This document shows, piece by piece, positions 655-4,306 of a stretch of 5,288 nucleotides of DNA. The position numbers and the translations under genes were made by a program. Source of the stretch: Cellulomonas sp. (GTDB lineage Bacteria > Actinomycetota > Actinomycetes > Actinomycetales > Cellulomonadaceae); NCBI GenBank assembly GCA_027451305.1, contig DAIDJQ010000079.1, forward strand, positions 1-5,288. Reading direction: 5' to 3'. Each line of letters opens with the position of its first letter. Position 1 is the stretch's first letter. The notes beneath the pieces were generated by a model. That model searched no databases. It worked only from the letters and a program-made list of their open reading frames with translations, and was not told the DNA's origin.

Positions 655-2244
655 GTGGACGCAAACGGCCTCTCTCCGCTGTTCATGGCTCCGACCGCCG
701 CCATCCCGACCCTGCCGTCGATCGGCCTGTCCGACGTCGAGGCGACGACCGCGAACTGGCTGGGGATGCGGCTGTTCGAGCAGCGCCCCTACCTGGAGCT
801 GCGGGGCCTGTACTACGACGGCATGCAGAAGATGCAGGACCTCGGGATCAGCATCCCGCCGTCGCTGGTGGGCCTGCGCACGGTCGTCGGGTGGCCGCGG
901 ATCGGCATCGATGCCCTGGACAACCGGTGTGTCATCGAGGGGTTCCGCTTCCCTGGCGCCTCCGATGTCGACGAGGACCTGCAGGGCATCTGGCAGGCGA
1001 ACAAGATGGACGGCGAGTCCCGCCTGACGCACCTGGACACCCTGGTCTACGGGCGGGCGTACAACATCGTCGGCCCTGGCGACGACAGCACGGCAGGTCA
1101 GCCGCTCATCACGTCCGAGTCGCCGCTGAACATGATCGCGACGTACGACGCCCGGATGCGCCGGGTGTCGGCGGCGCTGCAGATGTACCTGGACACCGAC
1201 TTCACGTCGGACATGTACGGCCAGGAGGTCGCGGCGCTGTACCTGCCGGACCGGACCATCTTCATGGCGCGTCAGTCGCCCACCGGCAACCCGACCGCCG
1301 TCAAGTGGGAGATCGTCCAGCGCGACGACCACGGTCTCGGCCGCGTGCCGGTCGTCCGGATGGCGAACCGGCAGCGACTGTCGAACCGCTCAGGCACGTC
1401 CGAGATCAGCGCGGCCTGGATGAACACGACGGACTCGGCCTGCCGGACCATGCTCGGCATGGAGGTGGGGCGCGAGTTCTTCTCCGCGCCCCGCCGGTAC
1501 GCGCTTGGTGTGGCCGAGGAGGCATTCCAGAAGCCGGACGGGTCGGCCGTGTCCGCGTGGGACACCTACCTGCACAAGGTCTGGATGCTGGAGCGCGACG
1601 AGGACGGCAACCTGCCGACGATCGGCGAGTTCAAGGCCAGCGACCCGTCCGTGCACACGAAGCTGATGGACGAGTACGCGCAGATCATGGCCGGGAACAT
1701 GGGCGTCCCCCCGCACTTCCTCGGCATCTACACCCAGGGCAACCCGGCCTCCGCCGACGCGATCCGGTCGGGCTACGAGGAGCTGACCTCCCGTGCGCTG
1801 CGCAAGCACGTCGCCTTCTCCGACGACTGGGAAGAGACGATGTGCCTGGCCCTGCTGATCCGTGACGGGTCGCTGCCGGACAACGCCTACTTGCTGGAGA
1901 CCGACTGGCGCGACCCTGCGCCGCAGACCCTCGCCGGCACGTCGGACGCGGTCACGAAGCAGATCGCCGCGGGTGCGGTCCCGGCGACGTCGGACGTCAC
2001 GCTCAAGCGCCTCGGGTACTCCGCCGTGGAGCGCGCCCGTCTGGAGCAGGACCGCTCGGTCGATCAGGGCCAGTCGATGCTCATGGAGATCGCGCACTCG
2101 CTGGAGGCGAAGGCGCTGCGGGTGGACAAGGCGGTCAACGCCGACGCTTCCGCCCTGGCCGCTCCGACCCTGGCCGCGGGTGGCACGCCGACGCCGGACG
2201 TGATGCCGAAGAAGGTCCCCGTCAGTGCCCCCGTCAACGGTTGA
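655..2244 (+). CDS. Phage portal protein (SPP1 gp6-like)
   Basis: 529 residues, close to the usual length of gp6-like portals. The portal forms the dodecameric ring at one capsid vertex through which the terminase pumps DNA and to which the tail connector attaches. Features seen: an N-terminal segment LRGLYYDGMQ, a central RSGTSEIS segment near residue 248, and a segment near residues 350-375 with PPHFLGIY followed by NPASADAIRSGYEEL, typical of this family. The C-terminus is Ala/Pro-rich and probably flexible. The chosen start is GTG at 655, because GAGAGGGG (641-648) sits about six bases upstream; an in-frame ATG at 685 is possible but has a weaker site. The terminase lies upstream and the MuF gene overlaps its 3' end by 20 bases, suggesting translational coupling. 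Confidence 0.9.
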   Translation: MDANGLSPLFMAPTAAIPTLPSIGLSDVEATTANWLGMRLFEQRPYLELRGLYYDGMQKMQDLGISIPPSLVGLRTVVGWPRIGIDALDNRCVIEGFRFPGASDVDEDLQGIWQANKMDGESRLTHLDTLVYGRAYNIVGPGDDSTAGQPLITSESPLNMIATYDARMRRVSAALQMYLDTDFTSDMYGQEVAALYLPDRTIFMARQSPTGNPTAVKWEIVQRDDHGLGRVPVVRMANRQRLSNRSGTSEISAAWMNTTDSACRTMLGMEVGREFFSAPRRYALGVAEEAFQKPDGSAVSAWDTYLHKVWMLERDEDGNLPTIGEFKASDPSVHTKLMDEYAQIMAGNMGVPPHFLGIYTQGNPASADAIRSGYEELTSRALRKHVAFSDDWEETMCLALLIRDGSLPDNAYLLETDWRDPAPQTLAGTSDAVTKQIAAGAVPATSDVTLKRLGYSAVERARLEQDRSVDQGQSMLMEIAHSLEAKALRVDKAVNADASALAAPTLAAGGTPTPDVMPKKVPVSAPVNG

Positions 2245-4081
2245 GGCTCCCCCGCGGCCGGCTGACGAGCACCAGGCGGGCCAGGCCGCTCTGGTCTCGC
2301 TGATCCCATCGGTACTGCGGGAGGCGTGGCCGCTGCTGGACCTGCACAACCTGCAAGCCACCATGCCGCAGTTCACGGCGGCGGTCGAGGCCATCGTCAG
2401 GCGGTACGGCAAGGCGGCGGCGGTCGGTGCGTTGACCTACTACCAGGCCGAGCGCCGGACGGCAGCTGTACCCGGCAGGGCGCCGACCATGCTCGCACCG
2501 GCACCTGCGGATGCGGTCATCGAGTCGGCGGTGTCGTGGGCTACGACGGACCTGTACGGCCCTGTCTCGCAGGAGACGACGGCAGCGGCGATGGACCGGC
2601 TGGACGAGTCGGTGGCGCAACTGGTCCTCGACCAGGGGCGCCAGACGATCATCGGTGCCGTCCAGCACGACAAGTACGCGAAGGGCTGGGCGCGAGTCAC
2701 CGAGCCGGGCGCGTGCTCGTTCTGCACGATGCTCGCGCTGCGTGCCGGCGTGGGGCTCCTGTACTACAAGAAGTCCTCGGCCGACTTCTCCGCGCACAAC
2801 AACTGTGTGATCGGCTCAACGTTGGTGAACGGTCCGACGACGGAGGTCGCCTACCGGCGCTGGTATGAAGGGGAACTCGTCGTCCTCCGCACTTCCAGCG
2901 GCAATGAGCTCTCCATCACCCCGAATCACCCGGTACTCACGAGTCGCGGCTGGGTGGAGGCTGGCCTCCTTCGCGAAGGTGATGACGTAGTCGAGCGCTC
3001 CGGCGCCGATCTTGCATCGCTTGGTGTCCCACACGAACACGATGTGCCAACCCGCATTCAGGACGTATGGGGTGCGTACGGCGTGGATTGGCTTCGCGCG
3101 ATGCCAGTTGCCGCCGAGGACTTCCACGGCGACGGGGCTGGCACTGAGGGCGACGTCGAGGTTGTAGCGGCCAACAGCCTTCTCGCGGGTGTGATCGATG
3201 CCGAGATGGGCAAGCTCTCGACAGAGCCAGTCCGTCCCGGCGCTGGTGGGCCCCCCATAGCCGGAAAGTTCCCGACCGAGGGCGATCCGGCGGCGATGTT
3301 CCTCGCTCTGTTCCACGCCGCGAACAGCGTCGTGGGCGGCCCGGGCAAGATCGGAGCGCTCTGCCGGGCTCATGCGGCTATACCGCACGTCCAGCGCCTC
3401 GCTGCGATCTCGGGGATTCTCTCCAGCTTCGATGAGCCAGCGACGAACGACGGCCCGGGCAACACCGTGGGCGGCAGCGAGGGCCTTGACGGACTCTCCA
3501 GCCCGGTAGGCGTCCGCGATGCCCTCCGGGGCGGCGATTCGGTTGTGCCCCCCAGTTCGGGGTCTCGCTTCGATCCCCCGGCGACGCAGAGCGACGCGGA
3601 GCGACTCCGGGTCCATGCCGACCTCGGCTGCGCACTCCTTGAACGTCTTTCCGGAGGCGTACAACTCAGCCGCGTGGTTGATCTTCGCCGGGTCGATTAT
3701 GCGGGGCATGTGTTCAATCTCCAGACTGCCGAGGGTTGGTATGACGCCTCCAGCATAGTCGTCTCCAACTGCCGGTGTCACGCCGAGCCGGTGTTCACCG
3801 CCTACGAGCCGTCCGCGCGCATGCGTGAGGCGCAGAAGATGTGGGCCGAGGCGACGCGCGGCCGGTCTGGTGCCGACGCCCGTCTGGCGTTCCGGCAGGC
3901 GCTCGAGGGTCGCCCGGTGACGGGCACGACGGGTGCCAAGAAGAAGGCGGCCACGCTCGGCAGGTCGAGCCTGACCCGCGCGCAGGCCGAGCACCTGCTC
4001 ACCGTCACGCAGGGCCTCAAGGACTCCCCGTATCGCACGGGAGAGATCGCCCGGCTGCAGCGGCTGCTCGCCGGCAAGTAA
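2225..4081 (+). CDS. MuF-like minor head protein interrupted by an intein
   Basis: 618 codons: 193 of N-terminal extein, a 322-residue intein (bases 2804-3769), and 103 of C-terminal extein, giving a spliced host protein of 296 residues. MuF-type proteins are minor head or head-morphogenesis proteins, encoded beside the portal and incorporated in the procapsid. The N-terminal part is mostly helical. The conserved core is WARVTEPGACSFCTML (residues 155-170, Cys164 and Cys167), then FSAHNN joined after splicing to CRCHAEPVF. The two cysteine pairs suggest a metal site, which is an inference. The C-terminal tail is Lys/Ala-rich. The start is GTG at 2225 inside the end of the portal gene, with AAGAAGG (2209-2215) nine bases upstream. 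Unless the intein is removed, the core motif is broken, so splicing is probably required for a working protein. Confidence 0.88.
   Translation: MPPSTVEAPPRPADEHQAGQAALVSLIPSVLREAWPLLDLHNLQATMPQFTAAVEAIVRRYGKAAAVGALTYYQAERRTAAVPGRAPTMLAPAPADAVIESAVSWATTDLYGPVSQETTAAAMDRLDESVAQLVLDQGRQTIIGAVQHDKYAKGWARVTEPGACSFCTMLALRAGVGLLYYKKSSADFSAHNNCVIGSTLVNGPTTEVAYRRWYEGELVVLRTSSGNELSITPNHPVLTSRGWVEAGLLREGDDVVERSGADLASLGVPHEHDVPTRIQDVWGAYGVDWLRAMPVAAEDFHGDGAGTEGDVEVVAANSLLAGVIDAEMGKLSTEPVRPGAGGPPIAGKFPTEGDPAAMFLALFHAANSVVGGPGKIGALCRAHAAIPHVQRLAAISGILSSFDEPATNDGPGNTVGGSEGLDGLSSPVGVRDALRGGDSVVPPSSGSRFDPPATQSDAERLRVHADLGCALLERLSGGVQLSRVVDLRRVDYAGHVFNLQTAEGWYDASSIVVSNCRCHAEPVFTAYEPSARMREAQKMWAEATRGRSGADARLAFRQALEGRPVTGTTGAKKKAATLGRSSLTRAQAEHLLTVTQGLKDSPYRTGEIARLQRLLAGK
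2816..3709 (-). CDS. Antisense-encoded Vsr/EDxHD-like homing endonuclease nested in the intein
   Basis: 297 residues, starting at ATG 3709-3707 and ending at TGA 2818-2816, wholly inside the intein on the opposite strand. Domains in order: a helix-turn-helix at about 11-46 (ELYASGKTFKECAAEVGM), a second similar one at about 62-96 (DAYRAGESVKALAAAHGV), a linker with MSPAERSDLARAAH (113-126), and a nuclease core at about 158-232. The core contains RYNLDVAL (Asp185), VAVEVLGGNWHR (Glu196, His203), RTPYVLNAGWHIVFVWDTKR, resembling the Vsr-like fold used by EDxHD homing endonucleases. The tail has DYVITFAKEAS, EYRVIRGDGELIAAGS and DDEFPFIP. A GGAGA site lies eight bases before the ATG, and a promoter-like pair lies further upstream. 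The likely role is cutting intein-free MuF alleles so that the intein is copied in. The frame stays open upstream to 4375, but the start site and domains support 3709. Nuclease type is inferred from motifs. Confidence 0.82.
   Translation of the reverse strand: MPRIIDPAKINHAAELYASGKTFKECAAEVGMDPESLRVALRRRGIEARPRTGGHNRIAAPEGIADAYRAGESVKALAAAHGVARAVVRRWLIEAGENPRDRSEALDVRYSRMSPAERSDLARAAHDAVRGVEQSEEHRRRIALGRELSGYGGPTSAGTDWLCRELAHLGIDHTREKAVGRYNLDVALSASPVAVEVLGGNWHRAKPIHAVRTPYVLNAGWHIVFVWDTKRCKIGAGALDYVITFAKEASLHPAATREYRVIRGDGELIAAGSAEDDEFPFIPAPVGDLRRRTVHQR
3718..3722 (-). promoter_or_regulatory. Ribosome binding site of the antisense endonuclease
   Basis: On the minus strand the bases read GGAGA, eight bases before the ATG at 3709. 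This is a good Shine-Dalgarno match at the right spacing. It fixes the start of the 297-codon gene in a frame that would otherwise stay open far upstream. It lies in the codons for the block F segment of the intein. Confidence 0.65.
3752..3781 (-). promoter_or_regulatory. Candidate sigma-70-type promoter for the antisense endonuclease
   Basis: On the minus strand, GTGACA (3781-3776, five of six matches to TTGACA) and TATGCT (3757-3752, four of six matches to TATAAT) are separated by 18 bases. Transcription would start near 3745, giving a leader of about 36 bases that contains the GGAGA site. The -10 lies in the intein, while the -35 lies in the host codons for Arg-Cys-His of the MuF CRCH motif. 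Chance matches are possible, and actinobacterial promoters vary, so this is a prediction only. Confidence 0.4.
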
Positions 4082-4086
4082 CAGCC

Positions 4087-4103
4087 TCCCGCCTGGTGCG
4101 GGG
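4087..4103 (+). other. Short hairpin after the MuF gene
   Basis: TCCCGC (4087-4092) can pair with GCGGGG (4098-4103, one G-T pair at the base) around a five-base loop CTGGT. No T-rich tract follows, so it is not a convincing intrinsic terminator. It may modestly affect transcript stability or read-through between the MuF gene and the small gene downstream. Confidence 0.3.
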
Positions 4104-4135
4104 AAGTCACACAACCGTCCCTGGAGGACACCGTC

Positions 4136-4306
4136 ATGACCGAAACCAACCAGATCACCACCGGCGGAGCACTCGCCCAGTTCTACAAGGACTTGCTCGA
4201 AGGTGGAATCCCGCAGGACATCTCGGAGCGGGCAGTCCTCATCGCCGCCGAGGCGCTGGTCCGCGGCGAAGGTGAGCTCGTGGTCTCGAGCGGGGTGTCC
4301 GCATGA
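4136..4306 (+). CDS. Small phage protein of unknown function, 56 residues
   Basis: The start is ATG with a strong GGAGG site (4123-4127) eight bases upstream; the stop is TGA at 4304-4306. The ATGA overlap with the next gene's start indicates translational coupling. The protein is soluble-looking, with no signal peptide or membrane segment. It contains a predicted helical segment ALAQFYKDLLEGG followed by an Ile/Val/Ala-rich helix around residues 29-44. I do not recognise a family. Similar small open frames often sit between the MuF and scaffold genes in actinophages, so a head-assembly accessory role is possible but unproven. Coding status is supported by the ribosome site, the exact overlap and GC-rich third positions. 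Confidence 0.7.
   Translation: MTETNQITTGGALAQFYKDLLEGGIPQDISERAVLIAAEALVRGEGELVVSSGVSA

Follow-up and report, generated by a model that had tools for sequence, protein, structure and literature searches.

Can a single stretch of phage DNA encode a splicing intein on one strand and the endonuclease that spreads it on the other? The question is raised by the gene for a MuF-type minor head protein in 5,288 nucleotides of Cellulomonas sp. DNA (the window, meaning the whole stretch that was analysed). The 966-base stretch at 2804-3769, inserted in frame in this gene, very probably consists of two genes on opposite strands, namely a MuF intein that is predicted to splice and an antisense gene for a predicted homing endonuclease. 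Homing endonucleases are known in frame inside inteins or beside splicing elements. We consider it likely that the window represents a widespread, undescribed class of mobile inteins, in which the splicing protein and the predicted homing endonuclease are read from opposite strands of the same codons, with their parts in facing positions. The features concerned are as follows.

2225..4081, + strand: gene for the MuF-type minor head protein, GTG start, 618 amino acids with an in-frame intein (Pfam VG15, 7.9e-33)
2804..3769, + strand: intein of 322 amino acids, junction ...SAHNN/CRC..., with Cys1, Asn322 and Cys+1
2918..2941, + strand: intein block B, TPNHPVLT, residues 39-46
2969..3619, + strand: stretch between the Hint halves (the filler), residues 56-272, with a mostly antisense-type substitution pattern in the codon-position map
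3122..3136, + strand: intein FHGDG motif, residues 107-111, its Phe facing Glu196 of the nuclease
3707..3727, + strand: intein block F, HVFNLQT, residues 302-308, whose complement supplies the Shine-Dalgarno (SD) motif and ATG of the antisense gene
2816..3709, - strand: antisense gene, 297 amino acids, predicted homing endonuclease, ATG at 3709-3707 and stop at 2818-2816
3581..3691, - strand: first helix-turn-helix (HTH), residues 7-43, from AlphaFold2 helices
3428..3520, - strand: second HTH, residues 64-94 (HTH_28, 4.9e-7; AlphaFold2)
2894..3253, - strand: Vsr/DUF559-like nuclease domain, residues 153-272, by profile and fold similarity

Sequence and fold identify the sense-strand insert as an intein

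To judge from its sequence and modelled fold, the insert is an intein, and its splicing is predicted. The Intein_splicing family matched it at 2.6e-5 with 24.5 bits, below the curated Pfam cut-off of 35.8, and the NCBIfam model intein_Nterm reached 23.5 bits against a curated cut-off of 24.5. Among 54 aligned inteins Cys1, T39, H42 and N322 are invariant, as are N41, P43 and T46 in block B and F107, H108 and D110 in the FHGDG motif. The window shows Cys1, TPNH, N322 and Cys+1, the last of which is present in 139 of 142 inteins identified by pattern; its C-terminal end reads ...VVSN/C, with Ser rather than His as the penultimate residue. FHGD was found in 106 of the 142 distinct inteins, and many of the 36 inteins without it have Leu in place of Phe.

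In an AlphaFold2 model built from the 54 sequences, the two Hint halves, at residues 1-69 and at 286-322, are modelled with confidence, their predicted local distance difference test score (pLDDT) being mostly at or above 90, and the sense filler is mostly below 50 at residues 125-254. The top Foldseek matches of this model were inteins, with the RecA intein first (E 1.2e-4). An endonuclease read in frame within the sense filler was considered and rejected; Pfam and NCBIfam domain searches found no endonuclease family there, and the filler is largely below pLDDT 50. The homing endonuclease model of PADLOC matched MuF only at Hint residues 217-258. As a separate observation, the PHROG 'head protein' family phrog_15127 matches intein residues 1-137, and seems to have absorbed the intein together with the shadow of the antisense gene.

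The antisense gene encodes a predicted nuclease with two HTH domains

The earlier note on this DNA, made from the sequence alone, had placed an intein at 2804-3769 and a 297-codon antisense open reading frame (ORF) that shares 894 of the intein's 966 nucleotides, and these coordinates proved right. The two frames lie codon on codon; the codon of antisense residue i is complementary, in reverse, to that of intein residue 303-i. The note had also read the antisense product as tandem HTH repeats with a nuclease core, possibly of Vsr-like fold. The AlphaFold2 model (pLDDT 91) agrees with this, showing two HTH domains and a nuclease of the Vsr/DUF559/I-Bth0305I type. The HTH pair gave a profile match to 2lvs at 1.4e-8. 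The predicted structure falls within the Vsr/I-Bth0305I fold group, and the predicted protein joins a nuclease domain to DNA-binding domains, as a homing endonuclease would.

I-Bth0305I (PDB 3r3p) is an EDxHD homing endonuclease; these enzymes are defined by an E-D-x-H-D residue set, and their genes are also associated with split inteins. Across 90 relatives of the window nuclease, Y182, N183, D185, E196 and R212 are invariant. For the E-D-x-H-D set, D185 is present in 90/90, H203 in 83/90 and Glu159 in 86/90 of them, an assignment in which the alignment to the I-Bth0305I residues is ambiguous. The window nuclease scored 14.2 and 14.8 bits with Pfam DUF559 and MTES_1575, below their cut-offs of 20.6 and 38.2; at E 0.01 these models matched 24 and 71 of the 90 relatives. 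The predicted active site faces the FHGDG motif of the intein on the opposite strand. In 105 of the 106 inteins with FHGD, its His is encoded by CAC, read as Val195 on the antisense strand (a count for which no usage expectation was computed).

The antisense frame is open and constrained across relatives

Is the antisense ORF a gene, or merely a by-product of GC-rich DNA in this codon register, its conservation being the shadow of the intein? The window alone leaves some room for a by-product. From extein codon usage 2.6 antisense stops are expected, so that an open frame has P = 0.064, which is only moderately beyond chance, and other long spurious ORFs are present in the window. Across relatives the frame is open beyond chance. 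The register was identical in all 178 loci evaluated, and in the 161 of them with enough extein codons 877 stops were expected and 0 seen, in stretches that were matches inside ORFs and from loci that overlap and are related. The frame is open also in AT-richer DNA, against what a by-product of GC-richness would predict, with 24.8 stops expected in locus L024 (44% GC) and 21.3 in L120 (36% GC).

The substitution pattern contradicts the by-product explanation more directly. Differences in 38 non-overlapping pairs (50-97% nuclease identity) were sorted by sense codon position. In the filler they numbered 3606/1756/2454 at positions 1/2/3, and position 1 exceeded position 3 in 38/38 pairs, whereas in the upstream extein they numbered 1972/1699/2936, and position 3 exceeded position 1 in 38/38 pairs. 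The filler pattern held in 37/38 pairs when aligned by the sense protein and in 38/38 when aligned by nucleotides. In the Hint N and Hint C segments position 3 was highest, so that they look sense-coded. Mapped along the intein, the sense pattern extends to about residue 55 and resumes from 296, and most blocks at 56-271 show the antisense pattern. Residues 104-115 are low at all three positions; here FHGDG lies opposite Glu196, which marks a doubly constrained spot. The filler thus evolves by antisense codons, and the exteins by sense codons.

Expression signals lie opposite the splicing blocks

The following signals precede the antisense gene in the window.

3719..3722, - strand: SD-like GGAG, 9 nt before the antisense ATG
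3752..3781, - strand: candidate antisense promoter GTGACA-18 nt-TATGCT, weak, 9 of 12, one of 2 such sites

These 2 sites were all of that score found in a scan of 2600-4200, in which shuffled sequences gave a mean of 0.1. Opposite the His of block F, the antisense codon is ATG in 102, GTG in 27, TTG in 3 and another codon in 10 of 142 distinct inteins. Of the 129 relatives with His at this position, 102 encode it by CAT, where extein codon usage would predict 46. An SD-like motif is present in 113/142 loci, compared with 32.2 expected from synonymous resampling, and 0 of 300 resamplings reached as high a count. By the same resampling TATAAT occurs in 59/142 against 6.1 expected. TTGACA-N16-18-TATAAT with at least 11 of 12 matches was present in 28/142 against 1.10 expected, and a perfect one in 13/142 against 0.03. 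TGnTATAAT was exact in 26/142 against 1.1, and in 0 of 417 extein control windows, none of which contained a promoter scoring 10 or more. The -10 box lies mostly 32 nt before the antisense start, which puts the promoter opposite block G. The antisense start and ribosome site, and in many loci also a sigma70 promoter, are therefore far above synonymous-codon expectation, again unlike a by-product. For a cellular-intein control 30 actinobacterial loci were fetched, of which the Hint profile recognised 1 and the pattern 9; in these 9, a small set whose block F lacks His, neither an antisense start codon at block F nor an SD motif nor TATAAT was found.

The layout is widespread among phages

With the window antisense protein as query, tblastn gave matches in 115 of 50,697 phage records. 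Twenty phage loci, chosen by their match to the nuclease or the intein, were fetched, and in 19 the nuclease lies in register opposite an ORF that carries both Hint halves. Viral contigs were represented by the best 80 of 414 from the nuclease alignment and the best 80 of at least 567 from the intein alignment. The complete layout was seen in 76 of the former, the other 4 having the N half only (3 of these at the end of a contig), and in 79 of the latter, the remaining one being cut by the contig end and likewise showing only its N half. The window nuclease alone gave 5 stretches and no relative in viral contigs, by a pattern method that detects close relatives only. Of 15 intein matches in bacterial contigs, 14 carry the antisense nuclease, one of them only half of it, and the exception is an archaeal intein; the labels include Chloroflexota-type metagenome-assembled genomes, Paenibacillus, Planctomycetes, Rhizobium, Nonomuraea and Rhabdochlamydiaceae. 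At least 140 of 197 actinobacterial genomes had matches, which in almost every case covered just one HTH or nuclease stretch; one of two near full-length copies was inspected and lies antisense within an intein. The predicted arrangement of an antisense nuclease within an intein is thus widespread, in diverse phages.

The sole exception among the 20 fetched loci is Acinetobacter phage BUCT629 (L019, 2501-3394). Its annotated head gene is uninterrupted, and its nuclease gene, whose protein is identical in IME285 and P1068, follows directly in convergent orientation with a 7-nt overlap and has 12 stops in the opposite register. It is possibly an intermediate or an escape form. A relative that stands free, with its opposite register closed, is also hard to reconcile with a by-product of an intein, as are the pLDDT 91 model, the invariant D185 and E196 and the matches to known nucleases. 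On openness, substitution pattern, start, SD and promoter signals and this free-standing relative, a chance antisense ORF was rejected, and we regard the by-product explanation as extremely improbable. In Edwardsiella phage MSW-3 (L013, 470-2330) several small annotated ORFs lie upstream of the nuclease in the same direction, and could be an antisense operon or over-annotation.

Degraded forms raise the possibility that the gene was once a homing endonuclease and is now mostly a relic kept open by the intein. Loci L006 and L186 have a mini-intein of 166 amino acids (4001-4498 of L006) that has lost the nuclease and kept FHGDG, and a search of viral contigs with the L006 mini-intein found only itself and one further locus. 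L193 has a shortened intein with the C-terminal half of the nuclease only, and the window has Thr in place of Glu at residue 159. L147 gives only a partial nuclease match. In near-complete copies the stops seen are only C-terminal (near residue 288 in L001 and L003, near 278 in L005), and the copy G004/L199 has one TGA, beyond about profile position 265. A relic would not account for the antisense pattern in 38/38 pairs, one of them at 87.5% identity, for the retention of D185, E196, R212 and, in most relatives, H203, or for start signals in most members. We therefore consider a relic very unlikely.

The claim of the earlier note, that an intein and a separate endonuclease-like gene occupy opposite strands, is thus supported by profiles and folds, substitution pattern, replicated layout, signals and alleles (described below). 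Its ribosome site and sensible start correspond to the GGAG and ATG above and recur in relatives. It had pointed to phage genomes as the place to seek such pairs, and to evolution in both frames as a check; many phages carry the pair, and the filler bears the antisense signature. It had also held that homologues with stops in the minus frame beside a conserved intein would speak against the claim; the stops seen in near-complete copies are the C-terminal ones given above, and the nuclease is lost in L006/L186, halved in L193 and matched only in part in L147.

Occupied and empty alleles indicate mobility

Three states occur at one codon junction of the MuF gene in Vividuovirus (Gordonia phages), with flanks about 94-98% identical (L009-L011, L022, L203). 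Geodirt is empty, Vivi2, Angelicage and Fosterous carry intein A, and Sedona carries the unrelated intein B, whose nuclease is 29% like that of Vivi2 in exteins that are 99% alike. Jerseyvirus SETP7 and Kagunavirus phiEc3 are empty, and VSe101 and KMB36 are occupied, with flanks at 87-90%. Occupied and empty alleles at one site, as expected of homing endonucleases, were thus found in Vividuovirus, Jerseyvirus and Kagunavirus; among the matches listed, 19 phage names cover the Vividuovirus junction unbroken at 95% or more. Some related nucleases reside in MuF proteins that are not detectably similar (L061/L071) or are alike at only about 25% (L083/L103). The inteins of Escherichia phage KMB36 (L021) and Mycobacterium phage Sejanus (L023), which carry the antisense nuclease, occupy two further sites in MuF-type proteins, other than the CxC site, so the class is not confined to a single site. 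These alleles imply that the element moves or has moved.

A real nuclease could have another job, such as excluding competing phages or regulating late genes, with the intein as its shelter. Two HTH domains in tandem might serve regulation, the nuclease Vsr acts in repair, and no cleavage site is known for the antisense protein. No PADLOC model matches the antisense nuclease, which speaks neither for nor against such a job. The close coupling of the gene with an intein that occupies a conserved site argues against it, and empty and occupied alleles in near-identical phages, with related nucleases in dissimilar MuF proteins, are what homing predicts. A non-homing role is accordingly judged unlikely.

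A proposed homing cycle and the points against it

Coding constraint, signals, fold and alleles are most likely explained by homing, through transcription, binding, cutting, conversion and splicing. Transcription of the antisense gene would begin at a promoter of its own, which is strong in many of the relatives and weak in the window. The two HTH domains would bind the intein-less MuF site in the HPN/CRC region, and the Vsr-like domain would cut it. Repair would copy in the whole intein with both genes, and splicing would restore MuF. The element probably arose when a nuclease gene became lodged in the Hint loop in reverse orientation, in the only register that easily keeps both frames open, and the sense filler would be a passenger reading of that gene. 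The facing positions are promoter and block G, ribosome site with start and block F, HTH domains and filler, active site and FHGDG, and nuclease tail and blocks A and B.

Several observations weigh against homing by an antisense nuclease or against its generality. Foldseek alone found no PDB match to the nuclease below E 0.001, the window nuclease as a single sequence had no match in the PDB, and two mitoribosomal proteins come next in the list of Z scores, at 9.0 and 8.8. The openness of the window frame and its Thr159 have been mentioned. The window promoter is weak, and extein control windows reach its score of 9 in 14/417 cases (14.0 expected); in the 10/142 loci noted above, the codon opposite the block F His position is not a start codon. 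The loci are related, so the resampling counts are neither independent events nor separate origins. Family profiles were partly built from loci to which they were later applied, and degraded copies are under-sampled because the 80-locus sets are best-scoring and overlap. Near full-length copies were found in only 2/197 actinobacterial genomes, among the matches listed. Nuclease and extein similarity rise together in most pairs, and discordant pairs are few.

If homing by the antisense gene is correct, it constitutes a new architecture for mobile inteins, with a splicing protein and its spreading enzyme made from the same bases. As a natural example of two unrelated proteins encoded on complementary strands it would rank with the most complete, and it would provide a natural, replicated antisense-overlap system with strong evolutionary contrast between segments. 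It would explain the large inteins without a recognisable endonuclease in many phage head genes. It would also raise questions about the timing of opposed genes, the limits that dual coding sets on an active site, and the origin of the overlap from free genes like that of BUCT629. The empty, intein A and intein B states of the Gordonia phages offer a ready-made test cross. For gene callers there is a warning, as the nuclease is annotated in one record, and in others the head gene alone is.

Genomic context

The + strand of the window carries a phage head module, with the end of a terminase gene, a portal gene, the MuF-type head protein gene, a scaffold-like gene and a capsid gene. The MuF gene is flanked by the portal gene (655-2244) on one side and an SU10-like capsid gene (from 5033) on the other. 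The MuF ORF has a PHROG match to head protein / head maturation protease.

Comparison with known systems

I-Bth0305I and the EDxHD genes associated with split inteins are intron-encoded or free-standing, and are not known to overlap a splicing element. The free-standing relative in BUCT629 shares with the window the nuclease family and the orientation relative to the head gene; unlike here, it lies next to a head gene that has no insert, runs towards it with an overlap of 7 nt, and has its opposite register closed by 12 stops. A description of the antisense layout was not found in the literature, in a search whose scope left aside most subscription papers and the preprint of Gosselin et al. 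2025 on actinobacteriophage inteins with non-canonical architecture; novelty would fall if that preprint describes antisense endonucleases. MuF inteins are mentioned in passing, in passages that do not refer to an antisense gene (PMC11162368, PMC7468147).

Out-of-frame HNH insertions are reported in the phage methylases of ShiLan and Pacc40 (PMC11855218). As is predicted for the window, a hidden endonuclease overlaps an in-frame insertion in a phage gene and spreads in a homing-like manner. Unlike in the window, the ShiLan frame is another frame of the same strand and encodes an HNH enzyme, and its authors found neither a splicing domain nor a ribosome site (PMC11855218). I-DsqI of Didymium is described as an antisense homing endonuclease gene in a nuclear group I intron that is expressed and active (PMC9548176). 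The likeness is an endonuclease gene lying antisense inside a mobile element that is self-splicing, here by prediction. The host of I-DsqI is a ribozyme intron in rDNA, so its other strand is not protein-coding, whereas in the window the same codons code for protein on either strand. Large mobile inteins of the PI-SceI type carry the endonuclease within the same polypeptide as the Hint domain (PMC3943268). The element in the window resembles them in its Hint domain, in its conserved site in a host protein and in its probable homing by a carried nuclease; it differs in that this nuclease is encoded by a separate gene on the opposite strand, while the sense insert is predicted to be unfolded.
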